IMG/VR virus record: IMGVR_UViG_3300035210_000044
Coordinates: 1 to 41,405 of that record
DNA: 41,405 nucleotides
Reading direction: 5' to 3' (one strand)
Source: a virus
Under the pieces are notes generated by a model that was given only the letters and a program-made list of their open reading frames with translations, was not told the DNA's origin and made no database searches. The position numbers were made by a program, and so were the translations under genes. This document shows positions 17,244-23,811 of the stretch, one piece after another (the stretch's first letter is position 1; each line of letters begins with the position of its first letter).

Positions 17244-18248
17244 TTATTCGTGGGTTTTTATTTCTAGATAAGCAGCTACGAACTCTTTCGCCGCTTCAGC
17301 GTTGATGGCGTTTCCGTAGGCGCGCAGTCGTCCCACTCTTGAGGGATCCCCATTAGCCAGCGGGAATGTGCCGGGTTCAACTGGCCGCCACTTGTCATCC
17401 CTGCATCCAAGCCAGTCAGCAGTTCGCCAGAATCCGTTAACCGGGCCGGGCTGCATAAGATCACCTGCTTGCGCAGCTCCACCCGCTTGCAGTCCGGCTC
17501 CGGCTCGTAAGCGCTCCCCTTCCCGTCGCACGCCTTGGGTGTCGCCCAGCCCGACCAATTCACTACTTCCACTGTCTTCCGACTGCTGTCGTTGTTGCCC
17601 GCTGCGTTGTTTCCGTTCTGCGCCGGAGTTCCGGCCATTGGCGTTGGCCAACCCGCCAGCGCCACGATTTGATTGAGCGGTCGCCCTGTATCCCACGGCC
17701 TTGCGTCCTTCGCTCCTCGGTTCGCATCCGCCGCCGTGACTGTCGGCCACCCAGAACAGGCGGTCTCTGATATGCGGCGCACCGACGCCCGCAGACGGAA
17801 ACGGGATGGCCCCGAAGGCGTATTCCATGGCTTCCATGTCAGCGTGTACAAGGTCGACCCAAGGCTCGACAGCCTTGCTCGCAACCTGCTCTCCAAAGAT
17901 GACTGGAGGCCTGCACTGCTTGATGAGCCAGGCAAAAGTTGGCCAAAGGTGTCTTGGGTCCGCAAACCCAGCTCCAGCGCCTGCCGCGCTGAAAGGCTGG
18001 CATGGGCAACTTCCTGTCCAGACTGGTCGATCGTCCGGCCATCCTGCGCGACGAAGAGCGAGGGACCAAACTCCAACTCCAGCGAAGAAGTGGCACTGTG
18101 TGAAATCTTTAAGGTCGCTCGGGATGACATCTTCAATACTCCTTTCGTCGACGACGCCGGGCGCGATATGCCCGGCATCTATCAGGTTGCGCAGCCACTG
18201 GGCGGCGTAGGGGTCAAACTCGTTGTAGTACGCCGTCACAGTTGGCAC
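17244..18248 (-). CDS. DNA C5-cytosine methyltransferase
   Basis: This 334-aa protein starts at GTG 18248, six bases after the ATPase stop, without a clear ribosome site. Motif I is [12 protein letters not shown] (residues 54-65), motif IV is SCPCQPFS with catalytic Cys83, motif VI reads GEQV in place of ENV, motif VIII is IRDRLFWV, and the C-terminus has the [13 protein letters not shown] motif X. Between VIII and X lies a variable target-recognition stretch with repeated LAN/LGDTQG-like units. It likely methylates phage DNA to evade host restriction. A second open frame of 284 codons with an ideal ribosome site lies inside it. Confidence 0.92.
17276..18130 (-). CDS. Candidate overprinted gene inside the methyltransferase gene
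   Basis: In a different frame of the same strand, a 284-codon frame runs from ATG 18130 to a stop at 17276. AAAGGAG lies at 18139-18145, eight bases before this ATG, a better ribosome site than that of the methyltransferase itself. The product ([20 protein letters not shown] at the start; [21 protein letters not shown] and [12 protein letters not shown] repeats; [16 protein letters not shown] near the end) resembles, as I recall, a protein often annotated as hypothetical or methylase-associated in phages and Proteobacteria. The repeats equal the other frame's LADTNG-like units, so conservation may be passive. Real translation is plausible, not shown. Confidence 0.45.
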
Positions 18249-18253
18249 CTTGG

Positions 18254-19999
18254 TTATTGAGGGTTGGTTTCGGCGATGGCCTTGGCGATCCAGACACCGG
18301 TGACTTCCGGCCCAAGAGCTTTCGGTGACGGCATCTCCTTCATAGTCCCGCAGACGATCATGGTTTCCATGGCGCCGAGCCTGGCCAGATCTTTCAACAT
18401 GTCGAGCATCTGCGGTCGACTTCTGCTGTCGAGCACGTCGAAGCGGTCGAGGACGATCAGCTTAAGTTCACTGATCTGAGCGATTGCCAGCGCCAGCAGG
18501 CAGTCAGCCCGCCACTTCGCCGACTCACTGCATAGGCCGTATAGGCGATCGCCATAGACGATTTCCATGTCCTCGCGAATTACCACCGACTTCCAGCCGG
18601 ACAAGCGCGAAAGGATGGCTAGCGCATCATTCACCGGCGCCAATGCGGAGCCGAGGATTTCCGCGGGGATCCCGTTTGGTGACAGCGCTTCAGCGATAAC
18701 CTGCCAAGCCTTGACGTCTTCGTGGTTCTGGGCGGCTTTCTTCTCGGCCTCCGCTGCGCCATCAACCAGCTTTTGCCGTTCGGTAAGCGCCTCGATCTGG
18801 GCGCGGTAGGCGGCGGCGTTCTGGCGGAGCTTGATCAAGGCTTCATTGGCGGCCTCGATTTGTTCGTCCGTGACCGGCTCTACTTCACTTTGCAGGATGC
18901 CCAGCTCGTTGTTTGCGTTTTCGGCTGCGGCGATGGCCCGCTGGTCGTTCGCGAGGGTGCTCTTGTATAGCGTTACGGCTTCTTCAGCCTTGCGAAGCTC
19001 CTGCGCGATCTGAGCGGCTTTGGCCGGGTCGGCCTTGGCGCCTTCAAACTTCGAAAGCGTGTTGCCGCTGATGACCAGATCTGCCTGGCAGCAAGGGCAC
19101 GCGACCGGAACAGAACCGGTCTTCGCGATCTTCAGCTCGCCGGTAAGGCGCTCGACAACCGGAAGCCACTTGTTCAGGTCGGCTTCCGTTGCTGTGCGCT
19201 TAGCCGTTGCGCGCTTCAGAGTTGCGGCCAAAGCCTCAAGCTCTTGGCGCTTGGCCGCGATAGACACCGCATCCGCGCGGCGCTGCTCAAGGTTGCCGAT
19301 GTGGCGGTTTCCGTTTTCGATATCGGCCTGGGTCTTGGCAAGCTTTTCTTCGGCGGTCTTGATAGCCGCCGGGTCGGCCGCTGGGCCGTTCGGAATTTCC
19401 TGTTTCCATCCCTCTGCCTGATTGGCGCCCCAGTTCATCCCGGTCACAGCGCGGAAGGCGCCTTTGGCTTGCGTAGCGCGCTCGGCTGCGTCCTTCTGCG
19501 CCGCGACAAAACCACCGGCCAATGACGGCTTGATCGCCGCGGCCATCTCCGGCGAGGCGCCGCACTTGATAAGCATTGCTTCAGTGTTGTCGGCGCTGAC
19601 CTTGCAACCCGTCAGGCTGAACAGCATCTTGCGGCGGTCGGCCTGGGAGATCTGAGCAAAAAGCGCAGGCTCCAAAACATACGGCAGGTATTGCGCGCCC
19701 TTGATTTCGTTCGAAACCAGATGATCGCCTTTCGGCAACTTGAAGTCGCCCAGCGGTTCGCCGGCGCCATCGGTGATGGTTACCCGACCTTTAGCCGCGC
19801 CGTCGTGCAGCAGCTGGCCCAGGTCTTTCTTGAGGTCGACCCGGCGAGGCTTGCCAAGGATGGCCATGCTGATGGCGTCGGCGATCGATGACTTTCCGGC
19901 TTCGTTCGGTCCTGAGATAACCATGATCGGCGTGGTGAACAGGAGGTCGGCCCGAGCAAGGCCAAGAACGTTGCTGATCTGAATCGTCTTGATGTGCAT
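18254..19999 (-). CDS. SbcC/RecF-like ABC ATPase with zinc motif
   Basis: This 581-aa protein has Walker A GPNEAGKSS (residues 30-38), a coiled-coil arm with a CPCC motif at 301-304, an ABC signature-like CSESAKWRAD (490-499) and Walker B LKLIVLDRFDVLD (512-524). The order head, coiled coil, Cys hook, coiled coil, head is that of Rad50/SbcC, but the arms are short. The usual nuclease partner may be the DnaQ-like exonuclease encoded just upstream. It probably works in recombination or DNA end processing with RecT and the YqaJ-type exonuclease of the same operon. Confidence 0.88.
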   Translation of the reverse strand: MHIKTIQISNVLGLARADLLFTTPIMVISGPNEAGKSSIADAISMAILGKPRRVDLKKDLGQLLHDGAAKGRVTITDGAGEPLGDFKLPKGDHLVSNEIKGAQYLPYVLEPALFAQISQADRRKMLFSLTGCKVSADNTEAMLIKCGASPEMAAAIKPSLAGGFVAAQKDAAERATQAKGAFRAVTGMNWGANQAEGWKQEIPNGPAADPAAIKTAEEKLAKTQADIENGNRHIGNLEQRRADAVSIAAKRQELEALAATLKRATAKRTATEADLNKWLPVVERLTGELKIAKTGSVPVACPCCQADLVISGNTLSKFEGAKADPAKAAQIAQELRKAEEAVTLYKSTLANDQRAIAAAENANNELGILQSEVEPVTDEQIEAANEALIKLRQNAAAYRAQIEALTERQKLVDGAAEAEKKAAQNHEDVKAWQVIAEALSPNGIPAEILGSALAPVNDALAILSRLSGWKSVVIREDMEIVYGDRLYGLCSESAKWRADCLLALAIAQISELKLIVLDRFDVLDSRSRPQMLDMLKDLARLGAMETMIVCGTMKEMPSPKALGPEVTGVWIAKAIAETNPQ

Positions 20000-20023
20000 A
20001 ACAGGTCCTTTCGTGGTGGTCGA

Positions 20024-20743
20024 TTAGAAGCCGGCGCGCTTGAAGGCTTCGAGGTAATAGGGATCGGTCTCGGCTTGACCGCGGTACCAGCGAACGTAAG
20101 ACGATGGAACGTCTTGGATCGCATCGCCTTTGTGCTTGCCGAAGCCCATCACCGTAGGGATGCGAGCGATCTCGCTGAGCTTGTGAACTTCGTCCCATGT
20201 CCCGACAGGAATGCCGCGGGTCGCCGCTTCAGTGAGCAGGAATCGCAGCAGGATCGAGCAGTTTCGAACGTCGTCAAGCGCCGCGTGGGCACCGCGGAGA
20301 AGGTCGCGGATGCGTGACTCTTTGGCGCTGCGCCGGCCTATCAGGTAGAGCATGGCTGACTGGGTGTGACTGTCCTTGTCGGGGAACAGATAGCGGCTCA
20401 TGGCAAGCGTGCAAATAAGGTCAACCTTTGGCTCGCCAGCCATGAGATGGTCGAAGTAGATTTTGTGGCCAACCATAAAATCAACCGTCTTCGGGATCTT
20501 GAACGTCTTGCTGTCCGGGCAGCCAGCCAAGTCTTGGTGGAGGATGTGGTGCACCGCCTGAGCGCCCAAACCGATAGAGCAGCTCGGCTTAAATCGCTGG
20601 TGGTAGAACGGAAATGCCTTGGCGTTCGGGACATCGTGGAACTCGCCAGGCGTTGGCGGAAGCTCGAGCCAGGCCGCCTCAATGATTTGATCGACCTCTG
20701 GGTCTGTGCCGGTGGTCTCGGTATCGAAGAGAATTACTTGCAT
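20024..20743 (-). CDS. DEDD exonuclease (DnaQ / ExoX-like)
   Basis: This 239-aa protein shows Exo I FDTETTG (D7, E9), Exo II around VGHKIYFDH (D98) and Exo III HAALDDV (H153, D157/D158), all four acidic residues of the DEDDh class. The C-terminal ~45 residues (VMGFGKHKGDAIQDVPSSYV, then WYRGQ) match the ExoX-type C-terminal module that binds DNA. It should act as a 3'-5' exonuclease in recombination or repair. Confidence 0.9.
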   Translation of the reverse strand: MQVILFDTETTGTDPEVDQIIEAAWLELPPTPGEFHDVPNAKAFPFYHQRFKPSCSIGLGAQAVHHILHQDLAGCPDSKTFKIPKTVDFMVGHKIYFDHLMAGEPKVDLICTLAMSRYLFPDKDSHTQSAMLYLIGRRSAKESRIRDLLRGAHAALDDVRNCSILLRFLLTEAATRGIPVGTWDEVHKLSEIARIPTVMGFGKHKGDAIQDVPSSYVRWYRGQAETDPYYLEAFKRAGF

Positions 20744-20760
20744 GTCAGGTCCTTGCAGAA

Positions 20761-20783
20761 GCGGCGCCGGGTCAGGGCGCCGC
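20761..20783 (-). promoter_or_regulatory. 8-bp GC hairpin upstream of the DnaQ-like gene
   Basis: GCGGCGCC (20761-20768), 7-base loop, GGCGCCGC (20776-20783), perfect over 8 bp. It fills most of the 55-base gap and ends 17 bases before the exonuclease start. On the transcribed strand it is followed by TTCTGC, too weak for a normal terminator, so attenuation or RNA processing is more likely. Confidence 0.65.
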
Positions 20784-20798
20784 GTGGTTGGTTTGTCG

Positions 20799-21797
20799 TT
20801 ACTCAGCCGCGGCAGGGATCAGAACTTGGCGACCGCCCATGTCGTCTTCAGGGCTTACCACTTCGTCCAGCTCAAGGCGCTCGATGGCGTCGAGCACTGT
20901 TTCTTCCGGCAAGGCGTGATCAACCATCAGCACGCCGACCGAAACCGACTGGCGTTTAACGACTGTTTCGCGAATTGCGAAATAGATCTCGTCGGTCAGC
21001 GCGACGGGGGTGTCTTCACCGCTGAGCTCTTTGCCAGAAGATTCGCCGGCGGTGCTGCCTTCGACGTCGAGGTCATTGCCGCTACCCGTGCGAATCAGCT
21101 GACGCATGCCGCTTGCGTCCTTGGCGGTAAGCACGCCTTCTTCTTCCATCAGCGAGTGAATGTGCTCAGCCTTGGTACGGTCGCAGTGCAGGTAATTCTG
21201 CAAGCCGGCCACCGTGGTGTTCTGCTGAAGAATGATGAACTCGCGCGCATCGATCAGCATCTTTGGCGCAACCTCGATTTTATTTTCAGGCTTATCGGCT
21301 TTGCCCTTACCGGATCCGGCCTTCTTGCCCTGCGAAGTTGTGCCATCCAGGTCGAGCGGCTTCTGATCCTTGTCCGACTGGATGTTGTCCAGACCGCCGA
21401 AGTAGTCCATATCCTGCAGCAAGACAACCACTTTTGCTTTTAAGTGCGCTTTGTCCATCAGCTGCAATCGGCCTGGGTGGTCGCTTTCGATAACGCCTGT
21501 GATCTGGATTTCTTTCTTGGCAGTGAACCCGGTAAGGATCATCGGGACCTGGATCACTTCGGCGCCCAGCAGAATTTGCGCAGCAGTAAAGACTGTTTTT
21601 TTCAATGTGCTTTGCAGCGTGGAAATCACAGCGTCCTGTTGTTGCTGGCCCAGGTCGTTGTAAGGCTTGGTCTGCTGGCGAAGACTATCGATGCAGGCCT
21701 GTACCAAATCGTGAAGCATGAACTCGGCAGACTGCTCCATCGGGGTAAGGCCGTTGGCTTTTGCCGCGTCAAGTACCGCTTTTTGTGCAAGGTTCAT
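20799..21797 (-). CDS. Phage protein with two FtsK-gamma-like winged-helix domains
   Basis: This 332-aa product starts at ATG 21797 (AAGGA ten bases upstream; an in-frame TTG lies earlier). Residues 1-150 form a unique domain (LLGAEVIQVPMILTGFTAKK). After a Lys/Gly-rich linker, residues 185-245 read DAREFIILQQNTTVAGLQNY ... IHSLMEEEGVL, close to the FtsK gamma domain (EKRKASISGVQRQF ... IEQMEAQGIV). Residues 268-328 repeat the fold (IYFAIRETVVKRQSVSVGVL). FtsK gamma binds KOPS DNA and XerD. No motor domain is present. It may be a sequence-specific DNA-binding adaptor in replication or recombination. Confidence 0.8.
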   Translation of the reverse strand: MNLAQKAVLDAAKANGLTPMEQSAEFMLHDLVQACIDSLRQQTKPYNDLGQQQQDAVISTLQSTLKKTVFTAAQILLGAEVIQVPMILTGFTAKKEIQITGVIESDHPGRLQLMDKAHLKAKVVVLLQDMDYFGGLDNIQSDKDQKPLDLDGTTSQGKKAGSGKGKADKPENKIEVAPKMLIDAREFIILQQNTTVAGLQNYLHCDRTKAEHIHSLMEEEGVLTAKDASGMRQLIRTGSGNDLDVEGSTAGESSGKELSGEDTPVALTDEIYFAIRETVVKRQSVSVGVLMVDHALPEETVLDAIERLELDEVVSPEDDMGGRQVLIPAAAE

Positions 21798-22015
21798 ATG
21801 GTCCAATTCCTTCGAGAAATGCCGGCTATCCGGCGTAGGGTGGTTTGTTGCAACGTGGTCATGACAAGTCGATCGCCTTCAATTTCGAAGCGATTGCGCA
21901 TGTCGTTGGTGAAGTCGATTTCCCATTGGTTGCCGGCGTTTAACTCGGCAAGCGCCAGGGTTGAGAGGAACAGCGCGCGGCCGGTGAGGGTCGCGCCTAT
22001 GTCGTCAACGGCCAC
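21794..22015 (-). CDS. Small hypothetical protein
   Basis: This 73-aa protein starts at GTG 22015, six bases after the recT stop, and overlaps the next gene by ATGA. The N-terminus (DDIGATLTGRALFLSTLALA) is moderately hydrophobic and the C-terminus is basic. It sits between recT and the FtsK-gamma-like gene and is probably co-translated. No family recognised. Confidence 0.65.
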   Translation of the reverse strand: MAVDDIGATLTGRALFLSTLALAELNAGNQWEIDFTNDMRNRFEIEGDRLVMTTLQQTTLRRIAGISRRNWTI

Positions 22016-22021
22016 GCCGGG

Positions 22022-22894
22022 TCAGTCCATGTTTACTTCAAAGTCTCCGCCGGCCTTTTCGGCTTCGGGCTCCTTGTCGGTGATCTCGCCGGTCTGCTTG
22101 TTTACCTCCTTGGCTTCTGTGGCCGCTTGTTCGTGGACGCCAGAATCGTTCGGCTCCAGGTCAATCACAAAACCGTTTTCGATAATGGCGCCGCGGCCTT
22201 CCTCGGCGGCGTTGCTGACCTGAATGGCGGCGTTGACTTCGACAGAGCACGGCATGTACTTCAGAACCTGAAGCAACGGGATTTTCCGGCAGTACATCTC
22301 CCAGTTACTGAAGCTGTAATGCTTCTGGCCCTGCTTGTTGTACTTGTCACGGTGCTTGCGAATCTTGGTCACCCGCCAGAGCTCGATGATCGGCATCGAA
22401 GCGCCCTGCACCCAGCCGATCGCAAAAGCGTGGGTGATCTCGTTCGGGTCCTCGAGGTCGGTTTCGTTGTGGATGACCAGATCCCGCTTTGCGCCGTCCG
22501 TGAAGGTGTACTTCTGATCGCTGAAGATCACGCCGGTGTACACGGTGCCGCGACCGCTGCGCGATACCAGATCGACCAGACCCTTCCAGCCAGGAACGAA
22601 GGTGCAGGTGTCCTTGTACGGGATCAGGTAGCCGGCACCGTTTACGCCAGGCTCAAGACCGAGCTGGGCGGCGGTCATGATCGAAGCGGCAATGCTCTTG
22701 TGAGTGCACCGCTGCATCTGGGTCGAACTGCTGAACGCCGTCAGCGCAAGCCGGGCCATGCGGTCGGCTGTCAGGTGCTTGGGCAAGGCCAGAGCCAGCT
22801 GACCCTTGAGCGAGTCCATGAAGTTGCTGAACTGGGTGGTGGGTGAAAGTTGCTTGCCGCCGGATGCGGCTTCGCGGAGTTGGTTGGTCGACAT
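22022..22894 (-). CDS. recT: RecT-family single-strand annealing protein
   Basis: This 290-aa protein has the RecT core: LKGQLALALPKHLTADRMAR, SIMTAAQLGLEPGVNG, GYLIPYKDTCTFVPGWKGLV and SNWEMYCRKIPLLQVLKYMP. The C-terminal 50 residues are acidic and disordered, a region that in other annealases contacts partners such as SSB. With the YqaJ exonuclease encoded 11 bases upstream it forms a two-component recombinase (exonuclease plus annealase). Confidence 0.95.
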   Translation of the reverse strand: MSTNQLREAASGGKQLSPTTQFSNFMDSLKGQLALALPKHLTADRMARLALTAFSSSTQMQRCTHKSIAASIMTAAQLGLEPGVNGAGYLIPYKDTCTFVPGWKGLVDLVSRSGRGTVYTGVIFSDQKYTFTDGAKRDLVIHNETDLEDPNEITHAFAIGWVQGASMPIIELWRVTKIRKHRDKYNKQGQKHYSFSNWEMYCRKIPLLQVLKYMPCSVEVNAAIQVSNAAEEGRGAIIENGFVIDLEPNDSGVHEQAATEAKEVNKQTGEITDKEPEAEKAGGDFEVNMD

Positions 22895-22905
22895 GGTCTT
22901 CCTCG

Positions 22906-23811
22906 CTATTTAATCCGAAGCACCCGCTGGGTGCCGCGCTTGGTGAATTTCTCGCAGATGGCCGGGTGCTTGTCGCGGAAGGCATCAATCATAAAACTTG
23001 AATTGCCTTGCGACTTCCACGAAGCCAGCTGCCTGCCCTTGTGCGTCATAACCTGATGTTCCATGAAAACCAGCTTCAGCTTTTCTTCAAGATCATCAAG
23101 GTCTGACTTCTTCAGCTTCAGCTGAGATTTCAGGAACTTCACTTTTTTGACCAGATCAGCGATGTCATCGCCAACCTCGATCGATGTTCCTTGGTCGCGC
23201 TCGAACAGGCGGAAGATGTCGCTGACCTTAGTGGCCGGCGGCGGGTCGCGGCGCTGGATGCGATCCCAGAACTCGACCTCTTTGGCCTGGATCTTTTCGA
23301 TCAGCTCGTCATCGCGCTGGACTTCGTAAATGCGGAAGTCATCGATCCCGAGCATCACCGGCAACAGGCAGGAAGGCGCCGGCTTGATCATCATCCCGTG
23401 CATGCATTGGGCGGTGTAGTAAACCGGAATGCTGTCGGTGTGCTCTTCGCCCCACTGTGCACGGTCGTAAAAGTCTGCCGTCGTCTTGGCTTCGACGTTG
23501 CGCCCGTCGCTGGTCTCGGCATCGATCTCGGCGGCAAGAAAGCCATGCACGCCGTGGGTGTAACGATTGTTTCGACCGATTAGCTCGATCTTCTTTTCCT
23601 CGCAAAGCATGTCGAGGACGTAAGGTTCGAGGCGCTTGCCGCGCTCCAGGATCTTCAGCTTGCCCGGGTCGGTGATTGGCTTGCTGCCTTCGACTTTATC
23701 GAAGTAGACATCAAGCGCCGTTCGCCATGGGCTGATGCCGAGGATCGCGGCGACATCGGATCCGCCGAGGTACGTTGCGCGATCTGGTTGGGTTCCTGTT
23801 TGAAGGATCAT
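22906..23811 (-). CDS. YqaJ-type phage exonuclease
   Basis: This 301-aa protein matches the lambda-exonuclease-like YqaJ fold. YLGGSDVAAILGISPWRTAL is the typical start, HGFLAAEIDAETSDGRNVEAKT holds the catalytic D...ExK motif, and YYTAQCMHGMM follows. The C-terminal third is a charged coiled coil (KKVKFLKSQLKLKKSDLDD). It degrades one strand of double-stranded ends to supply single strands for RecT. Confidence 0.93.
   Translation of the reverse strand: MILQTGTQPDRATYLGGSDVAAILGISPWRTALDVYFDKVEGSKPITDPGKLKILERGKRLEPYVLDMLCEEKKIELIGRNNRYTHGVHGFLAAEIDAETSDGRNVEAKTTADFYDRAQWGEEHTDSIPVYYTAQCMHGMMIKPAPSCLLPVMLGIDDFRIYEVQRDDELIEKIQAKEVEFWDRIQRRDPPPATKVSDIFRLFERDQGTSIEVGDDIADLVKKVKFLKSQLKLKKSDLDDLEEKLKLVFMEHQVMTHKGRQLASWKSQGNSSFMIDAFRDKHPAICEKFTKRGTQRVLRIK

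Follow-up and report, generated by a model that had tools for sequence, protein, structure and literature searches.

The window analysed here is the whole stretch of 41,405 nucleotides of the viral record IMGVR_UViG_3300035210_000044. Its minus strand carries the open reading frame of a cytosine methyltransferase, here named alpha, which runs from GTG 18248 or GTG 18239 to a stop at 17244. A second open reading frame, beta, lies on the same strand in the +1 frame and is entirely nested in alpha (Table 1). Since beta is in the +1 frame, the third codon position of alpha is the second position of beta. An earlier note on this DNA had described this second frame on the same strand, with its ATG at 18130, AAAGGAG eight bases 5', 284 codons and an end 32 bases short of the alpha stop, and all of these were found as described. 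Along beta, an N-terminal part over alpha motifs I-VIII is followed by a putative target-recognition region and then by a putative motif IX. Motif X of alpha comes immediately 3' of this motif IX on the DNA. Upstream on the same strand (18254-23811) are genes for an SbcC-like protein and for lookalikes of a DNA polymerase exonuclease subunit, RecT and RecE, which places the methyltransferase within a recombination/replication cluster.

Table 1. Features of the alpha/beta locus, numbered by position in the window.
Feature	Position	Strand	Remarks
Alpha, C5-cytosine methyltransferase large chain	17244..18239	-	331 aa; probable GTG start 18239; motifs I-VIII and X
Beta, nested +1-frame ORF	17276..18130	-	284 aa; PHROG matches, stop depletion, purifying selection
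AAAGGAG, Shine-Dalgarno site of beta	18139..18145	-	8 nt before ATG 18130
AAGGTG, probable Shine-Dalgarno site of alpha	18246..18251	-	6 nt before GTG 18239; sequence reading
Alpha motif IV, catalytic Pro-Cys-Gln	17997..18005	-	C80 and Q81 invariant, P79 nearly so
Alpha motif VIII (HIRDRLFWV)	17748..17774	-	invariant R158 and R160; selection shifts to the beta frame afterwards
Beta, putative target-recognition region, GWPTP / GWATP repeats	17450..17752	-	region-wise substitution analysis; the alpha frame here has LANANG repeats and is nearly unconstrained
Beta, putative motif IX	17333..17380	-	W258, L259, M260, P263 and W266 nearly invariant; family profile matches
Alpha motif X	17289..17330	-	invariant G309, N310 and A311; confident C-terminal helix 314-330 (model)

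The true start of alpha is probably GTG 18239, judging from the alignment: the corresponding column holds ATG, GTG or TTG in 85 of 125 aligned relatives, and Shine-Dalgarno-like sites were found upstream of 40 of 84 homologous alpha starts. The GTG taken as the start in the earlier note is thus three codons too far upstream, and its statement that the GTG has no visible ribosome site does not clearly hold for GTG 18239, where the relatives align and which AAGGTG precedes.

The start region of beta is conserved in spite of codon usage. The conserved alpha aspartate that gives the beta ATG is encoded by GAT in 94/120 sequences, and nearby aspartate columns prefer GAC. Alpha Arg36, which builds AGGAG, is encoded by AGG in 48/123 sequences, as against 270/4062 in all genes. 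AGGA, GGAG or a better site was detected upstream of 64 of 92 homologous beta ATGs (background: 6.8%), so the ribosome site whose conservation the earlier note had proposed to check is retained. The conserved ATG and Shine-Dalgarno site are indirect signs that beta may be translated. Of 124 relatives, 32 have a different codon in place of the ATG itself, each with another in-frame start nearby. By a strict regular expression, 113 of 124 relatives keep beta open to the end of its C-terminal motif (IX), and most of the remaining 11 fail the expression only.

Alpha matches PHROG_363 (E=2.6e-90) and, over motifs IV-VIII, PF00145 (E=2.7e-10). It possesses motifs I, IV (PCQ), VI, VIII and X of the C5-cytosine methyltransferases on a Rossmann large domain, with EQV rather than ENV as motif VI; in a further alignment P79, C80 and Q81 were all invariant. 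In its structure model residues 1-170 and 310-330 are mostly confident, and the best PDB matches were M.HhaI and M.HaeIII over about 170 columns. Residues 171-274 are mostly below pLDDT 50 and are predicted to form a mostly disordered linker. No recognisable motif IX was found in alpha between motifs VIII and X. Alpha therefore does not appear to be a complete single-chain enzyme, in which the target-recognition region and motif IX would be found in the same chain.

Beta matches PHROG_1008 (E=2.3e-39) and PHROG_31772 (E=5.1e-42), both of which, like PHROG_363, carry the label DNA methyltransferase. Single-chain Pseudomonas methyltransferases match PHROG_1008 solely at their IX-X end. Together with the split relatives described below, this suggests that the beta motif LNPxxxxWLMGxP occupies the place of motif IX, an assignment made from the PHROG profiles and from position. 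Searches with other tools gave little: Pfam detected nothing in beta or in relatives bearing IX-X, a profile search of beta against PDB sequences returned chance matches only, in a small hhalign comparison eight IX-X tails and five canonical methyltransferases could be aligned in the motif X region only, and hmmsearch found a weak match in one split relative (L356) spanning the end of IX and X. Modelled alone, beta had a mean pLDDT of 56.6 and a pTM of 0.25, and a Foldseek search of this model against the PDB gave no match below E=0.8. A poor model is expected, as beta may fold on its partner chain. Residues 70-117, in the conserved N-terminal part, are predicted to form a helix and a hairpin and matched no known domain.

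Interior stop codons are strongly depleted in the +1 frame. The window gene contains none, against an expectation of 5.2, and its synonymous shuffles were stop-free in only 0.5% of cases. In 125 distinct alpha genes, 32 interior +1 stops were observed vs 394 expected from synonymous shuffling; frequent stops among homologues, which the earlier note had said would speak against the gene, are thus not seen. The +2 frame of the same 125 genes served as a control and showed no depletion (1457 stops vs 1281 expected), and general stop avoidance can therefore be set aside. The pattern was repeated in an independent clade (WVEW type), in which 173 loci contain 82 +1 stops vs 638 expected. The earlier note had offered passive opening as its alternative, in which high GC and conserved alpha residues keep a meaningless +1 frame stop-free. 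The genes are indeed GC-rich (about 0.6), and conserved alpha residues do entail some +1 conservation. However, in WVEW-type loci below 48% GC the depletion is equally strong (6 stops vs 65.9 expected), which shows that GC is not the cause, and a passive explanation accounts neither for the lack of depletion in the +2 frame nor for start and Shine-Dalgarno codons that go against codon usage. Leucine, valine and isoleucine codons preceding an A, where a final G would create TGA, end in G in 8/520 cases in the 125-gene set and in 16/999 in the WVEW-type set; in neighbouring genes of the same loci the count is 54/142.

Substitutions were then divided into classes by their effect in the two frames (first letter alpha, second letter beta; N, residue changed; S, silent) in 45 independent pairs. 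Over whole genes dSN/dSS was 0.40 (0.29-0.53), so substitutions that are silent in alpha but change beta are held back; the earlier note had suggested such a test of constraint in both frames. Neighbouring genes gave 0.83 (0.44-1.68), an interval that comes from few genes and overlaps that of the whole-gene ratio. As these controls are few and wide, the part of the same genes that precedes the beta start was used as the control instead. There, dNN/dNS is 1.04 and dSN is 0.59, and the +1 frame is unconstrained. Constraint falls on both frames across motifs I-VIII (dNN/dNS = 0.57, dSN = 0.26). Past motif VIII, in the variable region, selection changes frame: dNS is 0.89 vs a dSN of 0.37, d(SN)/d(NS) is 0.42 (0.35-0.52), and dNN/dSN is 0.94 (0.87-1.02), meaning that alpha is almost unconstrained given beta. 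At the C-terminus alpha and beta are again both constrained. The same switch of frame was found in the other, independent clade (32 pairs). Since selection in the variable region acts on beta and hardly on alpha, the GWPTP repeats of beta are the selected ones and the LADT-type repeats of alpha a by-product, the reverse of the origin that the earlier note had proposed for the beta repeats.

The second frame thus shows purifying selection beyond that of the first, with a within-gene control, as is characteristic of a genuine overlapping gene. By these sequence comparisons the beta frame is real and under selection, and its openness is no passive effect of GC. Passive opening was rejected by the +2-frame and pre-start controls; with dSN at 0.59 ahead of the beta start and down to 0.26 beyond it, this explanation is extremely improbable. 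The stop depletion, the choice of start and Shine-Dalgarno codons, and the substitution classes all bear out the suggestion of a long-lived overlapping pair.

The nested arrangement is widespread among phages. A phage search with beta returned 195 records, N15, epsilon15 and BcepC6B among them. Loci collected by alpha alone, regardless of beta (L001-L080), all match beta in TBLASTN. By direct reading, open nested or partly nested frames were found in Escherichia phages N15, HdK5, Bas77 and K1H, Salmonella phages epsilon15 and SAP012, Klebsiella phage SBP, Xanthomonas phage XAP3, Komagataeibacter phage phiKX2, Acinetobacter phage ABMM1, and phages of Tunturiibacter, Paenibacillus, Lactobacillus and Synechococcus. 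Homologues without beta were sought as controls, but the candidates (HdK5, Bas77, XAP3, SBP and SAP012) all contain an open beta frame. The layout of N15 gene 58, the epsilon15 cytosine methylase and K1H ORF29/ORF28 is like that of the window, with alpha and beta nested and both frames open. The annotations of N15 and epsilon15 list alpha alone, while K1H has both, with beta under the uninformative name "Mte8-like" ORF28. The statement in the earlier note that both frames are widely annotated as proteins is correct for some records (K1H ORF29/ORF28 and Pagassa 59/60). In Pseudomonas phage LPPA33 (L238, 1156-2700) only beta is annotated, and the alpha frame, short of the roughly 47 residues that normally make up its N-terminal part, directly follows a ParB-like ORF. 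In Salmonella phage SAP012 (L239, 1820-2640) both frames are open and neither is annotated in the public record. Beta is open far 5' of its usual start and past the alpha start in three loci (L041, L146 and L147), possibly as a longer or fused beta.

Other relatives divide the motifs differently. Viral contigs were scanned for the C-terminal motif of beta, and in three of the split relatives found (L276, L287 and L288) alpha stops shortly past motif VIII, and it is only the beta frame that encodes a WPTP region, a LNPDWVEWLMGWP-type motif and then motif X. In L356 the LNPDWVEWLMGWP-type motif and motif X are spaced almost as in ordinary methyltransferases. In L327 motif X lies in a third ORF 3' of beta; this may reflect an enzyme in three pieces or a faulty assembly. 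The two genes of Mycobacterium phage Wile belong to the same families, gp75 to that of alpha (PHROG_363, 2.5e-72) and gp74 to that of beta (PHROG_1008, 5.2e-76), but they are adjacent with an 11-base overlap, and alpha ends after motif VIII while beta has motif X. On the single-chain family PHROG_116, gp75 covers positions 206-375 and gp74 positions 424-489 (gp74: 4.7e-8). In a clade related to L276, only 4 nt separate the start of alpha from that of beta (e.g. ATGAATG), and ATG, GTG or TTG is found four bases upstream of the beta ATG in 61 of 78 sequences. Start codons of alpha and beta four bases apart were observed in L372-L451, where a single Shine-Dalgarno site could serve both.

Relatives like L276, with an alpha stop right after motif VIII and the remainder in the other frame, could also be explained by programmed frameshifting, as could the collinear motifs on the DNA: ribosomes would slip from alpha to beta after motif VIII and produce one fused enzyme, and beta would never be started by itself. 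This is unlikely, as any useful slip would come only after motifs I-VIII, over the whole of which beta is already open and under purifying selection, and as beta has its own start and Shine-Dalgarno site, both of them conserved. In addition, motif X of the window gene would require a second slip back, the start codons of another clade lie 4 nt apart, and the Wile genes are annotated separately. Among 80 loci, none was found that reads motif VIII together with the beta motif in a single frame, as a single-chain fusion with the same beta sequence would; this counts against the two-chain enzyme proposed below.

If beta is translated separately, it could still be an overprinted protein with a role of its own, as a regulator, an inhibitor or an anti-defence factor, next to an alpha that is complete alone. 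The conserved N-terminal part of beta, with no known domain match, and the motif X kept by alpha would fit such a role. It is nevertheless quite improbable, since alpha lacks both motif IX and a constrained recognition region: its VIII-X stretch has no recognisable motif IX, is predicted to be disordered and is under almost no selection. The beta family, for its part, matches the IX-X end of single-chain methyltransferases, and in some relatives beta itself carries motif X. The idea of beta as a partner of the methyltransferase therefore stands, not as an extra unknown partner but as what the evidence suggests is the recognition and motif IX half of the enzyme.

The small-chain gene of the methyltransferase M.EcoHK31I lies in another frame of its large-chain gene. 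M.EcoHK31I (YGGCCR; Lee, Kam and Shaw 1995) is a two-polypeptide C5-methyltransferase and the nearest characterised enzyme, compared here by its description in PMC3404938. Its large chain contains motifs I-VIII and X and a predicted target-recognition domain, and its small chain only motif IX (PMC3404938). By this description the window pair shares the motif layout (I-VIII and X / IX), although the direct profile match of motif IX is weak. The pair differs in that its recognition region, as judged by selection, tracks beta and is not in the large chain, the published placement being itself a prediction. In M.AquI (CYCGRG) the catalytic chain has motifs I-VIII, and the second chain has the distal variable region and IX-X (PMC3404938). 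Wile and the L276 relatives resemble it in having a second chain with IX and X. The window pair departs from it: the catalytic chain keeps motif X, and the second gene lies wholly within the first in a different frame. The literature searched, which leaves out most subscription journals, yielded no account of such a nested phage family; this does not prove novelty.

The best explanation of the locus, with a probability of about 0.87, is a two-chain C5-methyltransferase encoded by nested, frame-shifted genes, in which alpha would supply catalysis and beta target recognition and motif IX. On the DNA the motifs would follow the usual order (I-VIII, target-recognition region, IX, X) with alternating reading frames: motifs I-VIII and X would come from the alpha frame, and the target-recognition region and motif IX from the beta frame, which starts at an ATG with a Shine-Dalgarno site of its own. 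Alpha would fold as the catalytic large domain with a mostly disordered linker in its middle, and beta would form the small domain responsible for recognising the target sequence. Translated separately, the two chains would assemble into one enzyme. Marking of phage DNA is the general use of such methyltransferases, and this enzyme presumably does the same, for example against host restriction.

For the wider group the picture is more tentative, with roughly even chances that it is right as a whole. The locus would represent a family of methyltransferases in phages of proteobacteria, acidobacteria, firmicutes, actinobacteria and cyanobacteria, with the recognition half encoded in the other frame and mostly nested. 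Because the single-chain motif order is kept on the DNA, frameshifts in a single ancestral gene may have given rise to the family. The N-terminal part of beta would then be newly made over motifs I-VIII, and the linker of alpha would be largely filler derived from the beta repeats. With nested, adjacent and motif-swapped arrangements together, the family is a test bed for the origin of overlapping genes. What could have been suspected as an annotation artefact is clearly an old and long pair of genes that overlap on the same strand, each frame with a likely function. Database records omit one frame or name both "DNA methyltransferase", and anyone looking for the recognition specificity would then turn to the wrong frame. 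The annotated product is under little selection between motifs VIII and X, and cloning, assays or specificity predictions based on it alone would deal with half an enzyme.
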